64,000 nucleotides of DNA, taken from contig NZ_CP043875.1 in NCBI RefSeq assembly GCF_032878975.1, positions 2,038,370-2,102,369 on the forward strand. Reading direction: 5' to 3'. The notes under the pieces are model-generated. The model was not told where the DNA came from, ran no database searches, and saw only the letters and a list, made by a program, of their open reading frames with translations. The position numbers and the translations under genes were made by a program. How positions within the stretch are numbered: position 1 is the stretch's first letter; each line of letters starts with the position of its first letter. Shown here in pieces: positions 7,286-17,200 of the stretch. Origin of the DNA: Methanoplanus sp. FWC-SCC4. Lineage in GTDB: Archaea > Halobacteriota > Methanomicrobia > Methanomicrobiales > Methanomicrobiaceae.

Positions 7286-8077
7286 ATGTTACCAATGAAT
7301 CATACAGCAGCATGTATGTACTTTGGAATAATCATTTCAATATTTCTAATATGTATGCCTTCTGCCGCACTTCATGCAGAAATAATCAACAAAAGCCTGA
7401 CTGACTCACAAACAGAAGGTGACGTTGTAGAATACATAATCCAATTCAGTGACATCCCGAAGCAGACCAGGATTCTTGAGATTGCAACCGACTTAACACC
7501 GGTGCCGGAAAAAAATCTCTGGGAGATTACGAAACCTGACGGATTCAAAGTATCAGGGGGGGAAGAATCATTAAATGACCGAAACATTGAGCTTGAAACT
7601 CTTAATTCACCGGGGGACTCGGTAACAGCAAAGATATACGGCAGGGTGCCTGTACTTACAACAGTCGAGGTTGTAAACGGGGTCGTGGTTACAAAGGTGA
7701 ATACACGAAAAACAGGCTATACGTATTATCACATCCAGGCACTTGACGAAAACAGGGACATACTCGGAACAGCCGCAACAGAAACATTCTCAATAGTGGT
7801 CCCTGATGATGAACAGTTTTCAGCAAGACTTGAGAAGGTTTCAAATGCCGACCTGCGCAGACAGATAAACAGCCTTTATGATAAGGGCCTCAAGGATGAG
7901 GCAAACGAGCTTTTGAAGTATGCCGAGTCTCCAAAGGATTCGACTGTTTCACTCCTGGCAGCAATAATTATCGGAGTTTTTATGCTTATAGCCGGTTTTG
8001 CCGGCGGAACAGTTTTCGGCCAGATCAGGGCTAAAAATATTCAGGATTTCCAGGATGAATACAAAGGGGGGAAATAA
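7286..8077 (+). CDS. Signal-peptide, single-pass membrane protein, first gene of the tubulin-like cluster
   Basis: A 263-residue protein of unknown family. Residues 4-30 form a signal peptide (ISIFLICMPSAALHAE), residues 30-210 are a predicted extracytoplasmic domain rich in beta strands (FSDIPKQTRILEIATDLTPV), and residues about 214-240 are a C-terminal membrane helix (AAIIIGVFMLIAGFAGGTVF) followed by a short basic tail. This places the bulk outside the cell and the tail in the cytoplasm. It ends three bases before the start of the tubulin-like gene, so the two are very probably one operon. ATG 7295 is an alternative start. An AT-rich box near 7253-7262 may be the promoter of the whole cluster. 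Confidence 0.65.
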   Translation: MLPMNHTAACMYFGIIISIFLICMPSAALHAEIINKSLTDSQTEGDVVEYIIQFSDIPKQTRILEIATDLTPVPEKNLWEITKPDGFKVSGGEESLNDRNIELETLNSPGDSVTAKIYGRVPVLTTVEVVNGVVVTKVNTRKTGYTYYHIQALDENRDILGTAATETFSIVVPDDEQFSARLEKVSNADLRRQINSLYDKGLKDEANELLKYAESPKDSTVSLLAAIIIGVFMLIAGFAGGTVFGQIRAKNIQDFQDEYKGGK

Positions 8078-8080
8078 AGA

Positions 8081-11000
8081 ATGGCACATGATGATATAAT
8101 CGAGGGAAAACCTTTCCAGATGCCCGATGAACTAACGGTGGTTGCAGTCGGGGGATGCGGCAAAAAACTCATAAATCATCTTTATACTCATGAATGGTTT
8201 TTGAGACACTATCTCTCAGACGGAAAAAAGCTCAGCCTTTACACAATCGATACCGACACAAACCAGAGAAAAGACGATATTGAAAGGGTAAAAAAGGTTG
8301 AAAAAAGCATAGGCGACATCCAGAAAACAAACAGCCAGATGGGAGGGAGTGTCAAATGCTATCATTACCACCTTCCTGACCTTGCAAATGTTGAAAGGGT
8401 ATCGTCACTCACATCAAAGGACATTATTGCACAGATCAAAAACAGGCGTGAAAAGCCGCTTGTTAATGTCTGGTGGATGAATGATCCGGATTTCGGGTTC
8501 GACTACCAGATGCTCAAACAGGTGGACAAAAATATTGTAGATGACTTCGGAGGCGGTGTCCACAGAAGGCGTGCGATTTCAAAAGCGGTTTTCTACAAGG
8601 CTATAACACAGGGAGGAGAACAGTTCCCGTCATTTCAGGGGCACGGGCCGGTTGCGATAATTGTCGGTCTCGGGGGCGGAACAGGCTCGGGAATGTTCAT
8701 AGATCTTGCAAGATACATCAAGGAAAAACGCGGTCAGGAGGCTAAAATTACCCTCTTCTGTGTTCTTCCTTCGGTGAGCGAGGGGGAGAAGGAGCAGCTC
8801 AATGCCGCAATCTCACTATCAGAGATTGAATATCTCAATATGAAGGAAGACAAACTCTTCAACTACATAATCCTCTCATCACTGAGCCCTACAGGATATG
8901 TTGACGGAGGTGACAGAAAACAGGAGGTTGTTGAGTTTGACTCCGCATTCCCTTATCTTTTCATAAACTCATTTTATCTCCCGACAGCAGACATCTCCGC
9001 AATCATTGATGCCAAAAAAGACTATTCCGGATTTATATTCGCAAACTCGCATGTCATCGAATACCCGGTTGAAAACCTGCAGTCACTTAAGAAAGGATTT
9101 GAGGATGCAATTGATGAGTTCGGAGAAATTGCAGTCAACAGATCAAAGACACTAAAGGAGATCTCAGACTTTTTTGCAACATATAAAAATCTCTACCCGG
9201 ATGAATTTTCAAAAACCGACAATGAAATCACCCACGATGATGTCAACTTTTACAGAAAGGAGATTGAAAGAATCAAAAAAATATGGGAGAATGAGATTAC
9301 TGATCTCCTCAATTTCCAGTCACGCCATATAATAGAATCTGCAATCACCAACAACATGCCGGAGGAATTAAAGGACATCTCGTCTGTGAGGGATTTTGAC
9401 AAGCTTTCAGAATATGTCAGAAGGCTGAGAAGATCACTTGAAAACGAAAGCAGACCACACGAAAATGCAAAGGATCAGGAACTCTACGAGGTTATAAAGA
9501 AAAATCTGCATCTTCTTGAGATTATGGCAGATCTGCAGAAGATGACACTTCCGGTCAGTGAAAAATCCGCCAGAATCGCACTTGTAAACCTTATAAGAGG
9601 TGAGGAAAACTTTGGAAAAATTTCAGGGGATCTTTCAGCAAGGGAGTCTTCACTGAAATCCGGGATAAGTGAGACTGATGTTAAGGTCAGTTCAAAACGC
9701 TCTGAGCTTGATGAATACTTAAAAGAGCAGGAAAAAATGCTCGAACATGTCAGATCAGAGATGACCGGACTTACAAAACCGGTGGATGATTATGTCGCAC
9801 TCGGCCGGGGAGGCGGGGAACAGGCCGATATTGAAAATCTTGAAAAGGAATATCTGGATAAATTTGCAGGTTTTCTCTTTGAACTAAAGGGTAAACTGAA
9901 TCTGCCAGAAAAGAAGAAGAAGTCAAAACCTATAAAACGTGAAAACTGGCTTTTGGATCTTCCTCTTGGAGACCTCCAGGGAGATGTTGAAAGACTTGAG
10001 AGGATTACAAAAACCGATCTCTCATACTTAAATGACCTTGCGGAATCGGTGGCTCTTTACTATTTCAACGAATATATGATGAGAGTTTCTAAAAAACAGG
10101 GCGTTTTAGACAGTCTGCTTGGAAAAAAGCTGAACCAGGAGATGTTCAGGAGTGAAAAAGCGACAAAAGAGGAACGCATCAGAAAGATTGCAACACTCCA
10201 CCCGGGAAAAATATCAATCCGTGATCCTTTTGACGTTTTTATCCAGGATAAATTCCTGACCCGCGAATTTGATTCAAAACTGGGATCAATCCGTGAGGCT
10301 GCAGTCTCACCACTTGTATCAGAGTTTAATCTTGCTTCGGATGAGAGGGATAAAATTATTCATGTCTTTTCAGGCAACAACATAGGGCAAATAATCTCGG
10401 CAATAAGAGATGAGCTTACAGCCATACTAAACGAAAGGTACGGATTTGTTGCAAAGATATCAAATGCAAACAATGAGATTGACAGCCTCATTCGTTCCCA
10501 GAAAACTATGAAGCAGGAAGTTGAATTCCTCGAAAAAATAGATTCACTGATTGTCTCAACATTTGAATTCAGAAAGAAATTTAACAGCGGCATTCTGGCA
10601 TATGAATCAGACCTGAGAGCCATTGATGAGAGAAGAAAAAGAGGCGATACGACAATAGAAGGGATGTACCGGACCTGGTTTGGAGAGATAAATCCAAACG
10701 TGCTCTCTCTTTTAAATGATGACTCGGATCTCTCAGTCCTTGACTACGATCCCGAAGGGAGATCAGAGATTGAAAAACTCTACAATATCGTAAGCTGGAA
10801 ATACAAAGAACTAATTGACGCTCACAAACTCGGCATCAACAACATTTCAATAGGATATGGGACAGGAGGAACAGAGAGATGGAGTTTTGAGAAATCAGCC
10901 CTTGTTGCATCTTCCCCTTCAAGATGGCTGTCCCAGCTCATTGACAACAAATCCGGAGATTTCAGGCGCTATCTGGTAAAGGCACTCGATTTAAAGGGTG

Positions 11001-11335
11001 TTGACAGTGCAAAGATAAACTCACACAACTACACAAAACCCTGGGAGATTTCACTTACATTCTTCGCAGCCGCAAGTTTCCTTGACAATGTATCACCTCT
11101 GACAACGGGCGGGGGATACTGGGAAAAATACCAGAGATCAAAGAACAACATACTTCATCATTCGCTGTATCTTCAGGATGGAAAATACATCGTCCGGGAT
11201 CACACCCTCCTTCTTGCAGACGCTGCCGAGATTGCTGACCTTGAATCAGGCGATAAAAACCACAGGGCAGAGATGAAGGAAAGGGTGACAGGGCTCTATC
11301 AGATAAAGGATATAAAAGAGGCCGCCGGGGAATGA
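8081..11335 (+). CDS. Large tubulin/FtsZ-superfamily protein (Tubulin_2-like)
   Basis: A 1084-residue cytoplasmic protein. Residues 20-30 (TVVAVGGCGKKL) look like the first nucleotide-binding loop of FtsZ/tubulin, and residues 197-204 (LGGGTGSG) match the tubulin signature G-G-G-T-G-[ST]-G that contacts GTP phosphates. After this come alternating strands and helices (ITLFCVLPSVSEGEKEQLNA) as in the GTPase domain to about residue 330. The remaining 700 residues are mostly helical with charged coiled-coil-like stretches and end in another globular part; FtsZ is normally only 350-400 residues. The size and the neighbours match the tubulin-like family Pfam calls Tubulin_2 and the FtsZ-like families linked by Makarova and Koonin (2010, from memory) to membrane remodelling. 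The stop overlaps the next start by four bases. Confidence 0.85.
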   Translation: MAHDDIIEGKPFQMPDELTVVAVGGCGKKLINHLYTHEWFLRHYLSDGKKLSLYTIDTDTNQRKDDIERVKKVEKSIGDIQKTNSQMGGSVKCYHYHLPDLANVERVSSLTSKDIIAQIKNRREKPLVNVWWMNDPDFGFDYQMLKQVDKNIVDDFGGGVHRRRAISKAVFYKAITQGGEQFPSFQGHGPVAIIVGLGGGTGSGMFIDLARYIKEKRGQEAKITLFCVLPSVSEGEKEQLNAAISLSEIEYLNMKEDKLFNYIILSSLSPTGYVDGGDRKQEVVEFDSAFPYLFINSFYLPTADISAIIDAKKDYSGFIFANSHVIEYPVENLQSLKKGFEDAIDEFGEIAVNRSKTLKEISDFFATYKNLYPDEFSKTDNEITHDDVNFYRKEIERIKKIWENEITDLLNFQSRHIIESAITNNMPEELKDISSVRDFDKLSEYVRRLRRSLENESRPHENAKDQELYEVIKKNLHLLEIMADLQKMTLPVSEKSARIALVNLIRGEENFGKISGDLSARESSLKSGISETDVKVSSKRSELDEYLKEQEKMLEHVRSEMTGLTKPVDDYVALGRGGGEQADIENLEKEYLDKFAGFLFELKGKLNLPEKKKKSKPIKRENWLLDLPLGDLQGDVERLERITKTDLSYLNDLAESVALYYFNEYMMRVSKKQGVLDSLLGKKLNQEMFRSEKATKEERIRKIATLHPGKISIRDPFDVFIQDKFLTREFDSKLGSIREAAVSPLVSEFNLASDERDKIIHVFSGNNIGQIISAIRDELTAILNERYGFVAKISNANNEIDSLIRSQKTMKQEVEFLEKIDSLIVSTFEFRKKFNSGILAYESDLRAIDERRKRGDTTIEGMYRTWFGEINPNVLSLLNDDSDLSVLDYDPEGRSEIEKLYNIVSWKYKELIDAHKLGINNISIGYGTGGTERWSFEKSALVASSPSRWLSQLIDNKSGDFRRYLVKALDLKGVDSAKINSHNYTKPWEISLTFFAAASFLDNVSPLTTGGGYWEKYQRSKNNILHHSLYLQDGKYIVRDHTLLLADAAEIADLESGDKNHRAEMKERVTGLYQIKDIKEAAGE

Positions 11336-12897
11336 TAATAAACAACAAAAAAAGAAAATTCTACCTTCTTTTGGCGTTGCCCCTGGGTCTTTTTGTAGCT
11401 TATATTTTCATGACAATTGCACCTGTCTTCAAGCAGCATCCGGCACCTGTGGAGCTTACTGTTGTACTTGAATACTTGTGCGGCCTTTTTTTCGCAATCG
11501 CGGCAGGGATGCTTTTTAACGAGGATTCAAGGGTCAACGGGGTGCTTTATGCAGTTATTTTCGCGGCAATTCCGGTTTTTTACGTCATCCTGACACCGGG
11601 TGCAAACACAGGCCTTTTGATTGTGACCTTCGCCGCAGGTGTTGTCTCCGGCGCCGTATTTGTCATAAATTCGGTTTTCACAAACCGTTATGACAATCTT
11701 GCAAAATTCGCAAAAGTAATTTTTACACTTTTTTTTGCAATCATCATCTCCTTTCTTGCATATGAACTGTACATATCATCATATTCACCGGAATCAACCG
11801 TATCTGGCGCAATTGCCCTGCAGAACGTATTCTTCTTTGGAACAGGCATTGTGATGTCAGCGATCCTCTGGTGGCTCTCTATTAAGGTAACGGTGGGTGT
11901 CAGGGCATCAGATATATTCATCTTCGGCCCGAGGTCTTCTGGGAAGACGTACTTTGTCCTCGGACTCTGGGACTACATATCCGAAAACTTTGAAAAGGGC
12001 CATTCAAACGAGGGTGTTATCTTAACCGGTGATCCAAATGACCCGGGCGAAGAGCTTCGCATCTCAAACCTTTACGCAAACGTCCTTGACGGAAAGATAC
12101 TCTCAAGGACATTTCGCTACCAGATGGTCATGTATCAGCTTACAGGAAAAAAGTACGGCATAATCCCGGTAAAATGGACTGTTGTGGACTATGCAGGCGA
12201 ATATTATGACGAACTAAACGAGATCAATTTCAAACGGGCAATTGATGTCATTACAGAGAGAATGGATATGCCCTATAATGAGGTTCGCAAAAATGTCGGA
12301 ACAATCGATTTTGTGAAGTTCATCAAACTCTATCATGCAGACAAACTCTCAGACCCCGAATTTACAAAAAGTGTAATCCTTGCAACAATGTACGGCAACT
12401 TCCTGAGAGCCGGAAAAGTGATTTTCTTAATTGACGGGGAGAAGATAACTGACGACAAGAGGGGCCATGCACAGCTTGCAAGAGAATTCGGCGGGTATAT
12501 GAAGACACTCATCGATCTTGAGGGGAAAAACTATTCCCGGTTTTTCAGCGCAAACAAGAAGTACGCACTTGTCGTTACAAAGACAGACCTGTTGTTTTGG
12601 AAAAACGAGGAGATAAAAAATTTCATCCTCTCACTCAACGGACACAAGCTCTCAGACATTCCTGAAAAAGCGAAAGAAGCACTAAGTATCGAAAAAAAGC
12701 TCTTTGAAATTCTAAGCTCCAATAAGGTCTTTAAAAACCTTGTAAACATGATGAACGATATTAACATGTATTTCATTGCAGTATCCGTGGATGCAACGGC
12801 AGAGCCTTTCCCGACAGAAGACGGATTTGAAGAGGAGATTGCACCAAGCGGCATTACACCGTGGAGATTTACTGAGATATTCAGATTCGGACTCTGA
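11332..12897 (+). CDS. Membrane-anchored P-loop GTPase of the tubulin-like cluster
   Basis: A 521-residue protein. Residues 1-185 contain about six hydrophobic helices; the cytoplasmic remainder is a GTPase domain. The Walker A/G1 loop GPRSSGKT is at residues 199-206, directly after the last helix. A G3-like WTVVDYAGEYYDE follows at about 283-295, and a G4-like VVTKTDLLFW (T-K-x-D) at about 417-424. The family is not one I can name; relatives are described as the distinct GTPase accompanying prokaryotic tubulin-like proteins. It is translationally coupled to the tubulin-like gene (four-base overlap), suggesting a complex that ties the filament-forming protein to the membrane. A long helical insert separates G3 and G4. 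Confidence 0.8.
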   Translation: MIINNKKRKFYLLLALPLGLFVAYIFMTIAPVFKQHPAPVELTVVLEYLCGLFFAIAAGMLFNEDSRVNGVLYAVIFAAIPVFYVILTPGANTGLLIVTFAAGVVSGAVFVINSVFTNRYDNLAKFAKVIFTLFFAIIISFLAYELYISSYSPESTVSGAIALQNVFFFGTGIVMSAILWWLSIKVTVGVRASDIFIFGPRSSGKTYFVLGLWDYISENFEKGHSNEGVILTGDPNDPGEELRISNLYANVLDGKILSRTFRYQMVMYQLTGKKYGIIPVKWTVVDYAGEYYDELNEINFKRAIDVITERMDMPYNEVRKNVGTIDFVKFIKLYHADKLSDPEFTKSVILATMYGNFLRAGKVIFLIDGEKITDDKRGHAQLAREFGGYMKTLIDLEGKNYSRFFSANKKYALVVTKTDLLFWKNEEIKNFILSLNGHKLSDIPEKAKEALSIEKKLFEILSSNKVFKNLVNMMNDINMYFIAVSVDATAEPFPTEDGFEEEIAPSGITPWRFTEIFRFGL

Positions 12898-12920
12898 AAA
12901 TTAGAGGGGGGGGTAAAATT

Positions 12921-14366
12921 ATGGATGATTCATATGGGATCTTCACAACCGACGGGCAGATTGTGGCAGGCGATCTTTACGATGATTCGGTCGTCCGTCT
13001 GGCAGAAAAGCTTGACGAGAGCATGGCATCCCTTTACATCAGCACCAAAAACGGACAGTTCCTGCTCGGAGCGGCTGTCAATGTTCAGAAAAAGGGAAGA
13101 CGTCCTGATACTTTCATATATCTTGAAAAACTTTTGTGGTATTCTAAAATACCGCCCAGAATAGATCTTGCCTACATTCACGACTTTTACAGAAGAATTG
13201 AGACGCATCTTCTTGAAATAGATTATAAAATCAGGGATCTGGCATCGGATGCCCGTTTTTTTGGTGAAAGACAAAAACAAACAATTACCAGACTCTCATC
13301 AGCTGATGTCTCACAATACTGCACGGGGAGAATACTGCTCTCAAAGCCGGTCGTCTGCATCTCGGCTGATCTTTTAAAGTCAGTCGATTTCGTGTTATCT
13401 GTTACTGAAAAGATAGCTCCTTATCTGCATACCGGATTTACAATTGTAGTCTCAAAAAGGACATTCAAAGATGCTGACCTTCTTGTGACTGAGAGTTACC
13501 CCGACGGCTATAACATCGAACTTGATTCGGAAACAGTCACTGACCCCTTTGAATACTATTACAAAAGTGCAGGTCTGCTTTCACAAAGGCAGGATGTCAC
13601 GGCAACTCTTTCAGGGGCAAAAACACGTGAAAGACTCACACTTGGTCTCATAAGTGATCTGAAATCTTATGAAAGGCAGAAAGGAGACAAAGCGGGCGAT
13701 ACGGATTCCTTTATAAAATCTGAAAATATTGGTGTTTTTGCCGATTTTGCATATGAGAGGGAGAGCAGTCCAAAAACCCGGAGTATTAACGGCTCAAAAA
13801 GACCTTCTGAAGAGGAATACACAAAATGGGAGGTTACAGGTCCTGAAAGGGACAGGCTCAAAAAAGACTACGAAGAGCATATGGAGAAAAAAAGAAGGGG
13901 GAGACTGAAAATAATTGTGCTTGTTCTCTTTGCGGTTGTTTTTTTCGCAGTTGCATCCATCCTTTTTGTTATCCCTAAAATGCAGATCAATGAAAGCACA
14001 ATCATACAGACCCAGACAGAGACCCCTTATGAAACACTTGTCCCGACACCCCCTTCGAAAACGGCTGTAATTGAGAGGCTCAATGCCACTTTTGGAAACA
14101 CTCCGTCAGGTCTGTCTGGTGCGAGCGGCATTTACAGGATAACAGTCAGAGAGCCCGAAATTGTCCATATAAACCTCTCTGAGAACTATACGCCGGATTA
14201 TTCATACTATCTGATGAAGTTCAACGAAACCGGATATACCTGGGACTATGTGAGCGGAACATCGGAGTACTCGGAAAAAGGGGCGGATGTTGATATTTTA
14301 ACTTCCGGCATATACAGGATATTCGCCGGAAAACAGCCTGCTGAAAACATGTCCTGGGATATATGA
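12921..14366 (+). CDS. Single-pass membrane protein of the tubulin-like cluster
   Basis: A 481-residue protein of unknown family. Residues 1-325 are hydrophilic and probably cytoplasmic, with a mixed alpha/beta N-terminal domain (YGIFTTDGQIVAGDLYDDSV) and a charged, low-complexity linker; a stop-transfer stretch KKRRGRLK precedes one membrane helix at about residues 330-351 (IIVLVLFAVVFFAVASILFV). Residues 355-481 are extracellular, with a Thr/Pro-rich linker and a small beta domain carrying several N-x-S/T sites. The start is fixed by a strong ribosome-binding site (GAGGGGGGGG at about 12904-12913). Position 23 bases after the GTPase gene supports a shared function. Proteins of similar placement have been called GTPase-associated, but I cannot show homology. 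Confidence 0.65.
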   Translation: MDDSYGIFTTDGQIVAGDLYDDSVVRLAEKLDESMASLYISTKNGQFLLGAAVNVQKKGRRPDTFIYLEKLLWYSKIPPRIDLAYIHDFYRRIETHLLEIDYKIRDLASDARFFGERQKQTITRLSSADVSQYCTGRILLSKPVVCISADLLKSVDFVLSVTEKIAPYLHTGFTIVVSKRTFKDADLLVTESYPDGYNIELDSETVTDPFEYYYKSAGLLSQRQDVTATLSGAKTRERLTLGLISDLKSYERQKGDKAGDTDSFIKSENIGVFADFAYERESSPKTRSINGSKRPSEEEYTKWEVTGPERDRLKKDYEEHMEKKRRGRLKIIVLVLFAVVFFAVASILFVIPKMQINESTIIQTQTETPYETLVPTPPSKTAVIERLNATFGNTPSGLSGASGIYRITVREPEIVHINLSENYTPDYSYYLMKFNETGYTWDYVSGTSEYSEKGADVDILTSGIYRIFAGKQPAENMSWDI

Positions 14367-14414
14367 ATACAAGCGTCCTGAAGGTATTAAAGACGGATAT
14401 TAAGTGATCTGAAA

Positions 14415-15947
14415 ATGCCACCCCCTGATTTTTTTAACCGGTTCTTTTTTTTATCCCTGATATGCATTTTTTTAATCCTTGCAGCCATTGCCTCCCCCGC
14501 CTCTGCCGAAGTAAAGAAAGGTACGCTTGTAATAAGTTCTGAACCAAAAGGCGCTCTTATTTATCTTAATGATGAAGATACGGGCCTGTACACAAACACA
14601 GTTATCGAGGATGTGTACCCGGGGATTCACTTTGTAAGGCTTGAGATGCCCGGATACAGAACATGGGAGAAGATATTTGAGGTTAAGGAAGGACAGATTA
14701 CAAAGGTCGGAACAGAGCTCGAGGCTGTAACGGGGGGTGCATATTCGATTACCACAAGGCCGGAGGGGGCACGGATTTTTGTGGACGGAGAATTTCAGGG
14801 GATTTCAAACACTGTTTTATACGGCCTTTTGACAGGTGAGCATGAGATTCTCCTGACACTTGAAAACTATTCAGATTTTAAAAAGACGGTTTTAATAAGA
14901 GAGGATTTGCCCGGCTCCCTGACACATGTATTTGAAAGCCTGCCGGTTAAAGGGAGAATCATATTTACCTCAGCCCCTTTGGGCGCTGATATTTTCCTAA
15001 ACGAAAACTTAACAGGCATTACCCCCTTCACCCTTGACGAGACGGAGCCGGGAATCTATGATGTCCGGATAAAGATGCCGGGATATGAAACATGGGAGAA
15101 GACTCTCAGTGTTGAGGCGGGAAGGATTACTGAGATCACGGCAGAGCTGGTTCCTGCAAAAGCGGAGATATTAATAGAGACAGTCCCTGATGGTGCATCC
15201 GTTGTGATCGACGGCGTGCTGAAGGGGGATACTCCGTTAACAGTTTCCACAGAGCAGGGGGAGCACGGGATCATAATTTACAGATTCGGTTATGAAAATA
15301 TCTCTGAAACATTCAGAACCGGTTATCAGGGAATAAAACTCTCATACACCCTTGTATCGAAAGCTCCGGTGGCAATCTCCGATGCCGAATCGGTCATTGA
15401 GAGAAACCTGATATACAGCCCAAAGGAAGCACAGATTCTACTTGAAAAGGCCAGAACAAGTTATACCAAAGGCGACTCTGAGGGTGCGATTCTTCTCGCT
15501 GAAAGGGCTATAAAAAAAGCTCAGGATGTGGACTCAGACGGCATTTATAATAGTGAGGACATTCTCCCGTCTGTAAACAACCTGCCGGTTTACATATCAC
15601 CGTTCATGATCATCACTTTTTTTTGTTATCTCCTCTATAATGATTTTAAAAATCATACAGTAGTGCCGAAATTAAGGATTGAAATGCCGGATATTGTAAA
15701 GTCATCCGATAATCTGGCAAAAGCTCTTGTCGGGATAGAGATTGAAGGCAGATACCGCGGTCTTGTATGCACAGTCTACATCGACGGTGCTGTTCTGGAT
15801 CATATTGCCGAAACCGGAACATTTGAGATAAACATCTCAGGCTATTCGTATGGTGTCCACAGGCTGAATGCCCATCTTCAGGTTATAAAGGAGAGATACG
15901 GAAAGGCAGAGGTGACAGCCACAAGGCAGTTTTCAGTTGAGGGATAA
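14415..15947 (+). CDS. PEGA-repeat surface protein, membrane anchored
   Basis: A 510-residue protein with a cleavable signal (FLILAAIASPASAE), then four PEGA-type beta repeats, each with a core such as SSEPKGALIYLNDEDTG, TTRPEGARIFVDGEFQG, SAPLGADIFLNENLTG and TVPDGASVVIDGVLKG, spanning about residues 35-320. Next is a helical segment (ERNLIYSPKEAQILLEKART), a D-S-D-G-I-Y-N-S-E-D loop reminiscent of calcium-binding dockerin or thrombospondin-3 loops, a membrane helix (YISPFMIITFFCYLLYNDF) and a C-terminal beta domain of about 110 residues. PEGA repeats are found in prokaryotic surface proteins. It follows the previous gene by 48 bases and is probably the last member of the cluster. Confidence 0.8.
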   Translation: MPPPDFFNRFFFLSLICIFLILAAIASPASAEVKKGTLVISSEPKGALIYLNDEDTGLYTNTVIEDVYPGIHFVRLEMPGYRTWEKIFEVKEGQITKVGTELEAVTGGAYSITTRPEGARIFVDGEFQGISNTVLYGLLTGEHEILLTLENYSDFKKTVLIREDLPGSLTHVFESLPVKGRIIFTSAPLGADIFLNENLTGITPFTLDETEPGIYDVRIKMPGYETWEKTLSVEAGRITEITAELVPAKAEILIETVPDGASVVIDGVLKGDTPLTVSTEQGEHGIIIYRFGYENISETFRTGYQGIKLSYTLVSKAPVAISDAESVIERNLIYSPKEAQILLEKARTSYTKGDSEGAILLAERAIKKAQDVDSDGIYNSEDILPSVNNLPVYISPFMIITFFCYLLYNDFKNHTVVPKLRIEMPDIVKSSDNLAKALVGIEIEGRYRGLVCTVYIDGAVLDHIAETGTFEINISGYSYGVHRLNAHLQVIKERYGKAEVTATRQFSVEG

Positions 15948-15949
15948 AA

Positions 15950-17200
15950 TCAGGATATCGTCAGGATGTACAACAGGTATATCACAACCTGCCCTCCGGT
16001 AATCAGAACGCCGGCCTTTGCAAACCGAAGAAATCCAATGCATATACCTTTTTTTTCAGCATTCTGAACGATTATGATGTTGCTTGCGGCACCAAAGAGC
16101 AGAAGATTTCCGGCAAGTGTGCTTCCTGCGGCAAGCGACATTAAGACATTCGGTCCTGCACCCGAAGAGAGCACAAGCGGCATAAAGAGAGCCACGAACG
16201 GAACATTTGAGATAAACTGGCTTACGATAAGTCCCATTAGCATCGTCAGGGCAGGAGTGAAGGAAAAGCAGCCTGAACCCTCAAAAAACGCCTGGAAGAA
16301 TCCGGTGTTCCATACACTCTGCATGAGGACAAACATTGCGGCGAAGAAGAGAAGGGTATGCCAGTCGGCCTCCCTTAATATCTCCATTCTTTTTTTGGAG
16401 AACAAAAGAAGAGGCAGTGCCGATATTATGGCGATTGAAAAGAGGGGAATATGGATACCGTATCCTGACAAAACAGCAGATGAAAGGATCAGCCCTGCAA
16501 GAATTAAGAGAGATAAAAATGAGGGATCAAAGAACCAAAATCCGGATGGCTCCCTTTTCTCATCTGTGCAAAAATCGTCTTTAAAATGCTCCCTGTATAG
16601 AAATCTAAGACAGAGATATACGAAAATAAGGGAGAGGAGTGTGGGCAGTCCGAGGTAATATAAAAAGGCAAAGAACGGGTTTTCAATGCCGGACATCGTT
16701 GCAATCAGAAGATTCTGCGGGTTTCCTACCGGACTTGCCACGCTGCCCGTTGTAACCGAAAAAGCAAGTGCCAGAAGAAGCATTTCAGGAGGCAGTCTGA
16801 ATTTTTTCGAGAGGGTTACTGCAAGGGGGGCTGCGATTATTGCAACAGTGTCGTTCATTAAAACCGCCGAGAGCAAACCTGTTAAAAAAATGAATGAGAG
16901 GAGAAATACGTCCTGATTTTTTGCTTTTGAAAATATTCTGTTTGATAGTGATTCGAGAACACCGCTTTTGAAGAGTCCTGCCCCTATAATAAAAACGCCG
17001 GACAAAAAGAGCATGACATCAGGACTGACTGCCATTAATGCATCTTTTGGGGTTATACTGCCGGTCAGAAGAACAAAAGCCGCTCCTCCGCACATTATCT
17101 GCCAGATGCTGATTTTAAACCTGAGAATATTCCTAATCGCAATTAAAAGAAGAACTGACGCGAGAGTTGCCAGGGGTATTAACGGATACTGCGTAAGCAA
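15950..17200 (-). CDS. ArsB/NhaD-type ion permease
   Basis: A 416-residue membrane protein with about eleven to twelve helices of the ion transporter superfamily that includes ArsB, NhaD and CitT. Visible features include MLFLSGVFIIGAGLFKSGVL, the conserved NDTVAIIAAPLAV in the first half and its inverted counterpart SNVPFVALFMPLVL in the second, where each N-D/N-V loop re-enters the membrane. Substrate may be arsenite, Na+ or a dicarboxylate; no arsenic-resistance gene (arsR, arsC, arsA) is adjacent, so I do not assign ArsB. The gene is antiparallel to and ends just two bases from the PEGA gene. Confidence 0.85.
   Translation of the reverse strand: MLTQYPLIPLATLASVLLLIAIRNILRFKISIWQIMCGGAAFVLLTGSITPKDALMAVSPDVMLFLSGVFIIGAGLFKSGVLESLSNRIFSKAKNQDVFLLSFIFLTGLLSAVLMNDTVAIIAAPLAVTLSKKFRLPPEMLLLALAFSVTTGSVASPVGNPQNLLIATMSGIENPFFAFLYYLGLPTLLSLIFVYLCLRFLYREHFKDDFCTDEKREPSGFWFFDPSFLSLLILAGLILSSAVLSGYGIHIPLFSIAIISALPLLLFSKKRMEILREADWHTLLFFAAMFVLMQSVWNTGFFQAFFEGSGCFSFTPALTMLMGLIVSQFISNVPFVALFMPLVLSSGAGPNVLMSLAAGSTLAGNLLLFGAASNIIIVQNAEKKGICIGFLRFAKAGVLITGGQVVIYLLYILTIS

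Follow-up and report, generated by a model that had tools for sequence, protein, structure and literature searches.

The five-gene cluster at positions 7286-15947 of the window (the whole 64,000-nucleotide stretch of Methanoplanus sp. FWC-SCC4 DNA that was analysed, from a nearly complete 2.3-Mb genome) is a version of a known, experimentally unstudied system rather than one new in kind: a tubulin-superfamily protein of the FtsZl1 type is encoded next to a membrane GTPase and to proteins anchored in the membrane and facing outward. The anatomy of the set is well supported. All five genes, designated A to E, lie on the forward strand in that order with intergenic gaps of 3, -4, 23 and 48 bases, as described in an earlier note made from the sequence alone, and are flanked by unrelated transporter genes: an MFS gene upstream of A and, downstream of E, a convergent CitMHS-family gene at 15950 whose stop codon lies 3 bases from that of E. 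Promoter and terminator scans of the cluster returned scores near shuffle levels and were uninformative. The earlier note had made its reading depend on the association with a GTPase and membrane proteins being conserved elsewhere; tens of archaeal genomes show the A-B-C-D(-E) order again, even where the proteins are only about 25% identical, and for this reason we regard the cluster as real. Because C adjoins B in essentially all complete loci, A-B-C-D is maintained and the genes overlap or nearly overlap, gene order makes it likely that their products function together.

Gene B (8081..11335, forward strand) encodes a soluble protein of 1084 residues, identified through Pfam, an AF2 model and VIA-align as an FtsZl1/Tubulin_2 protein, with a predicted GTP-binding, tubulin-type domain followed by a long helical arm. 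It matches Pfam Tubulin_2 at 8.7e-13 (48.7 bits, above the curated cut-off of 27) and, more weakly, Pfam Tubulin (1.7e-10). The nucleotide-binding domain (residues 15-330; 8123..9070, forward strand), delimited by the model, fold matches and profiles, carries a T1-like GGCGKK (residues 24-29), the T4 loop GGGTGSG (residues 198-204) that had already drawn attention to this protein, and a conserved EGEKEQLNA (residues 234-242). The AF2 model, computed from a 13-sequence alignment (mean pLDDT 72, pTM 0.49), predicts a Rossmann-type domain at residues 15-266 with six strands in tubulin order, and its top VIA-align matches were Odinarchaeal FtsZ1 (Z 16.0, 191 residues, 4.3 Å), CetZ (Z 14.8) and TubZ (Z 14.3), over 191-209 residues. 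The tubulin fold, on whose presence in residues 1-330 the earlier note had staked its proposal, was thus found by AF2 and VIA-align at residues 15-320. Archaeal FtsZ profiles align to B in two collinear blocks, one at the T1-like GGCGKK and the other from T4 to the helix-5 region. The Tubulin_2 match and the FtsZ-type N-terminal fold bear out the placement of B in the FtsZ-like family of Makarova and Koonin; its size, described as giant, is the usual one for this family, the type protein Huta_2051 having 1051 residues (PMC2875224).

The same tubulin-type fold, with Z values of 14-16 to FtsZ and CetZ, would be expected if B were an FtsZ/CetZ-type accessory protein for division or cell shape, surrounded by incidental neighbours. 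We consider this very improbable: B scores 16.6 bits against the FtsZ equivalog model TIGR00065, far under the cut-off of 295.2, two genes for canonical FtsZ and one CetZ-like gene lie elsewhere in the genome, and the linked genes are conserved over large distances. In searches of PDB with the B sequence, FtsZ was matched only at E values above 0.3. The proposed distinction between B and division FtsZ is thus upheld by the two canonical FtsZ genes, the CetZ-like gene and a 920-residue relative. This relative is a second large tubulin-superfamily ORF located outside the window (G000:C1:390487 onward; locus L061:1498-3492), a 920-codon frame whose product has a MRILAIGVGGAGS domain at its N-terminus and ends in a long, acidic tail of low complexity; it is possibly the second CetZ reported for Methanomicrobiales in an extended form.

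Beyond the nucleotide-binding domain, AF2 secondary structure and the conservation profile delineate a long helical and coiled-coil region of poor sequence conservation (residues 331-880; 9071..10720, forward strand; helices at 330-854 in the model), followed by a C-terminal alpha/beta domain (residues 881-1084; 10721..11332, forward strand) that is less certain in the model and carries conserved FLDN, HH and G-Y--R. Neither a recognizable T7 loop nor an FtsZ-type C-terminal domain was detected in B, and hhalign of residues 880-1084 against the FtsZ C-terminal domain was not significant; polymerization is therefore uncertain, and B may not polymerize. The same features are wanting in FtsZl1, whose description includes missing T6-H7 elements (PMC2875224). 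They are in keeping with B being a GTP-dependent sensor or scaffold instead of a filament, in which case the two nucleotide-binding proteins would relay the state of the envelope to the cytoplasm as a signalling or transport complex. The reviewer Jekely's published alternative similarly placed FtsZl1 in transport or signalling, and the outer beta-sandwich of D resembles that of adhesion receptors. However, the FtsZl1 authors note that all characterized FtsZ/tubulin proteins polymerize, and the C-terminal AF2 model of B is weak enough (pLDDT 40-80, pTM 0.49) for a T7-like surface still to be allowed. On balance we find such a sensor or signalling complex unlikely. Residues 939-1000, with an S7-H9-S8-H10-like order, were considered as a possible displaced FtsZ activation domain; hhalign was not significant, and the VIA alignments reaching residues 981-995 of B gained about 20 residues over those confined to the N-domain.

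Gene C (11332..12897, forward strand; 521 residues) encodes a polytopic membrane protein in which about six hydrophobic helices precede a cytoplasmic GTPase domain closest to DO-GTPase2, in agreement with its earlier reading as a multi-helix membrane protein with a GPRSSGKT GTPase domain. The P-loop GPRSSGKT (residues 199-206) is followed by a Walker B VDYAGE (residues 285-290) and by TKTD (residues 416-419). The window protein scores 14.4 bits (E 0.03) against Pfam DO-GTPase2 (PF19993), under the curated cut-off of 27; this family was listed for all 13 aligned C members, with a best E value of 1.1e-5 and a best score of 25.6 bits against the same cut-off, and different relatives cover positions 5-108 and 112-208, in both halves of the 226-position model. 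Since none of the 13 members passes the cut-off, C is labelled only DO-GTPase2-like; a genome-wide search for the DO-GTPase2 family did not recover the window protein. VDYAGE, a candidate for the conserved Walker B-region glutamate of DO-GTPase2, occurs in the window and in most relatives, with Ser or Lys at this position in loci L036, L046 and L048. The best PDB profile match of C is SRP receptor beta (E 0.017), a suggestive similarity to a membrane GTPase whose partner carries a longin-type domain (PMC3521125). In one haloarchaeon (locus L106, reverse strand, ORFs 12010-15549), two C-type membrane GTPase genes follow B in tandem, the paired arrangement behind the name double-GTPases.

Gene D (12921..14366, forward strand; 481 residues) has the topology earlier ascribed to it, that of a single-pass protein with a large cytoplasmic domain: some 330 cytoplasmic residues, one transmembrane helix (~332-352) and some 130 outer residues. 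Its AF2 model (mean pLDDT 75) and VIA-align together suggest a longin-like segment (residues 1-103, of which 1-100 form a beta-beta-alpha-beta-beta-beta-alpha unit), an alpha/beta segment (103-190), a helical segment (211-267) and an outer beta-sandwich (~373-472). A 30-member alignment gave no convincing match in Pfam and PDB sequence profile searches. By structure, residues 1-105 align to about 30 longin/roadblock chains (Z 5-6, 2-3 Å, 82-97 residues), each below the safe level of the tool, while residues 1-272 can be superposed, segment after segment, on complete DENN modules (longin, DENN and dDENN domains). The DENND1B match (Z 8.1, 205 residues, 5.4 Å) is at a level that unrelated models can reach, Z values of about 8 being possible background; DENND1A and DENND10 follow at Z 7.5 and 6.8. 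Because independent matches agree on functional class and domain order, we give the longin/DENN reading stronger credence than any single score would suggest; as modelled, the cytoplasmic part of D resembles longin/DENN-type GTPase partners, if not conclusively. The outer domain aligns to GAIN/ZU5 chains (Z 6-8, VIA-align), and the models lend support to a ZU5/GAIN-like outer domain as they do to the fold of B and to a longin/DENN-like D.

The location of a longin-like D beside a membrane GTPase gene recalls longin/roadblock-GTPase pairs (SRP receptor alpha/beta, MglA-MglB, Rag-Ragulator), and its modelled longin-like, alpha/beta and helical segments stand in DENN order. D differs from both groups in showing no detected sequence similarity to them, in being membrane-anchored and in bearing an outer domain. 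PMC3521125 describes DENN as a module of eukaryotes, with a longin domain descended from the roadblock-type GTPase partners of prokaryotes. We tentatively suggest that D may be a prokaryotic, membrane-anchored longin-DENN module regulating a membrane GTPase that controls tubulin-type assembly, in other words a non-eukaryotic regulator resembling DENN and connected both to a cytoskeletal protein and to the surface of the cell. Should D truly be of this kind, it would be relevant to how GTPase regulation arose in eukaryotes and to roles of the archaeal cytoskeleton beyond division. GAP1-N2 (PF20013) had no matches in Pfam scans of the D members, and in 20 related genomes no match exceeded the cut-off.

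The two remaining genes encode membrane-anchored, surface-exposed proteins, such that A, D and E all face outward. Gene A (7286..8077, forward strand; 263 residues) combines a signal peptide, an outer domain, a C-terminal transmembrane helix (~222-245) immediately preceded by a conserved juxtamembrane stretch, KGL..EA, and a short cytoplasmic tail, consistent with its initial description as secreted and membrane-anchored. A Pfam search assigned A to no family; its orthologues are found upstream of B down to 18% identity, that of the Methanoperedenaceae locus L036 among them. Gene E (14415..15947, forward strand; 510 residues) has the signal peptide and PEGA repeats previously attributed to it (four stretches, Pfam PEGA 4.2e-56), and in addition another hydrophobic helix, close to residue 390, and a domain at the C-terminus, neither of which the earlier note mentions.

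Conservation was surveyed by applying family profiles built here to 50 B loci. Orthologues of B occur in Methanomicrobiales, on 16 named GTDB contigs and, across the phylum, in 47 of 393 genomes. In 47 of the 50 loci the gene immediately downstream of B is C; in the other three, the contig ends (L111), B is a tandem paralogue (L045:16071) or a rival ORF masked a C that tblastn detects (L050). A is upstream of B in about 40 loci, and the sets comprise A-B-C-D-E in 18, A-B-C-D in 10 and A-B-C in 9. Close relatives share the order, and so do distant ones whose proteins are 25-45% identical. Both Methanomicrobiaceae and a related family (f8) retain A-B-C-D; D seems to be missing from one genus-level group (g11). 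Most genomes of Methanomicrobiaceae carry the cluster, and its core genes are strongly conserved there, B and for the most part C being 70-77% identical. B-C persists in the more distant versions of Methanoperedenaceae, haloarchaea and Methanohalobium, most of which have a single-pass protein at the position of D whose HMM link to D is uncertain. In the B tree, the loci with a window-type PEGA gene group into a single clade of 19 rows that has full SH-aLRT support; its lone E-less row is the tandem paralogue, and in one row A falls beyond the distance window. The only "E" call elsewhere in the tree (L104) is a different beta-rich outer domain. Orthologues of the window-type E are accordingly confined to one Methanomicrobiales clade, and we define here A-B-C as the archaeal core, D as widespread and the PEGA gene as the marker of that clade. 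In an E-less clade, a single-helix protein of 173-189 residues with a Thr/Pro-rich linker is encoded after C or D (L047:11938-12459, L048:12257-12799 and L051:7747-8316) and may be a separate surface partner.

The FtsZl1 family and its link to a GTPase are already published: Makarova and Koonin described them in 2010, archaeal operons with a membrane-associated GTPase included (PMC2875224), and our literature search found no experiments on FtsZl1 since. The cluster shares with that description an N-terminal FtsZ-like domain with GGGTGSG, a coiled-coil middle and a separate C-terminal domain in a protein of ~1050-1100 residues, a linked P-loop GTPase with TxKD (TKTD at residues 416-419 of C) that is membrane-associated in archaea, uncharacterized membrane proteins in the operon and a canonical FtsZ in the same genome. 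It differs in the absence of adjacent vWA and OmpA genes, in its conserved partners A and D and, in one clade, in its PEGA protein. No vWA gene lies beside the window cluster and three are found elsewhere in the genome. Since the source speaks of vWA as a "majority" partner, frequent and not obligatory, its absence does not decide FtsZl1 membership; the OmpA link concerns several genomes only, with a proteobacterial named context (PMC2875224). The earlier note was correct that vWA and OmpA are missing beside this cluster, but went too far in making it a new variant in which PEGA replaces them: E is restricted to one clade, the constant partners being A, C and, in most cases, D; membrane-associated GTPases had already been reported with FtsZl1 in archaea (PMC2875224); and a VWA gene accompanies the Haloplanus cluster. 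A and D may correspond to the unnamed families A1/A2 of PMC2875224. In the literature searched we found no description of an archaeal A-B-C-D core, of a clade-specific PEGA partner or of a possible longin-DENN regulator. The compact core (A-B-C, usually with D) is thereby defined in methanogens, including lineages with cultured members.

A second parallel is with the DO-GTPase/GAP1-N2 systems with tubulin genes described, mainly from bacteria, by Kaur et al. 2020 (PMC7159879). Common to both are a DO-GTPase2-like GTPase with N-terminal membrane helices, a tubulin-type protein, envelope-facing domains including PEGA and, in haloarchaeal relatives, Hsp70, VWA or kinase-like associates; different here are the sub-threshold Pfam score of C and the lack of a recognizable GAP1 or FNIII-repeat protein. 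The Haloplanus set has VWA, Hsp70, GrpE and beta-propeller genes alongside, and the set of another haloarchaeon is accompanied by a protein that we read from its sequence as kinase-like. Because these relatives add associates described for both systems, they tie the methanogen cluster to the FtsZl1 and DO-GTPase descriptions alike. A role in conflict has been proposed for the bacterial DO-GTPase-GAP1 systems (PMC7159879), and by extension the surface and membrane parts of the present cluster would sense an invader, the GTPase would set a threshold and B would assemble as an effector disrupting the infected cell or its membrane. The resemblance of C to DO-GTPase2, which is the GTPase in these predicted systems, the tubulin-like proteins found in about half of GAP1-N2 neighborhoods (PMC7159879), the VWA and Hsp70 genes of relatives and the patchy distribution (47/393 genomes) are all compatible with such a role. 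A defence-model search, however, gave only weak, chance-level matches, relatives of B were absent from viral contigs, and the cluster is found in most Methanomicrobiaceae genomes with a strongly conserved core (70-77% for B and mostly for C) and no sign of rapid effector turnover, so that we judge an immunity function rather unlikely.

We favor instead, with about even confidence, an FtsZl1/DO-GTPase-type trans-membrane apparatus in which D tunes C, C controls the assembly of membrane-attached B, and A, D and E are turned outward; filament formation by B and the function of the cluster are both inferred. D would bind the GTPase domain of C and set its nucleotide state, in the manner of longin/roadblock proteins with SRP receptor beta, MglA and Rag GTPases. 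This switch would be coupled to the outer domains of A and D, and of E in the PEGA clade, which may contact or sense the S-layer or envelope, and would recruit B and control its GTP-dependent assembly at the cytoplasmic side of the membrane. A scaffold of this kind would act locally, shaping the envelope, anchoring the surface or responding to stress, and would be distinct from the division machinery; the coexistence of B with canonical FtsZ in the same genome lends weight to this reading. A filament linked across the membrane to the cell surface is plausible from the predicted topology. The wiring thus proposed, from outward-facing partners through a longin/DENN-like D and a membrane GTPase to tubulin-type assembly, is testable.

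Two further loci deserve mention. A Methanoculleus-like A-E cluster lies on a contig binned as a Bacteroidota MAG (L027:946-9593); transfer to bacteria was considered and set aside, the contig being almost certainly bin contamination. In another genome of the same order (G027) there are three FtsZl1 genes: the first belongs to an A-E cluster (L045:7771-11028), the second is a fast-diverging tandem copy right after it (L045:16071-19361) and the third lies in a separate A-B-C cluster (L046:7772-10945).
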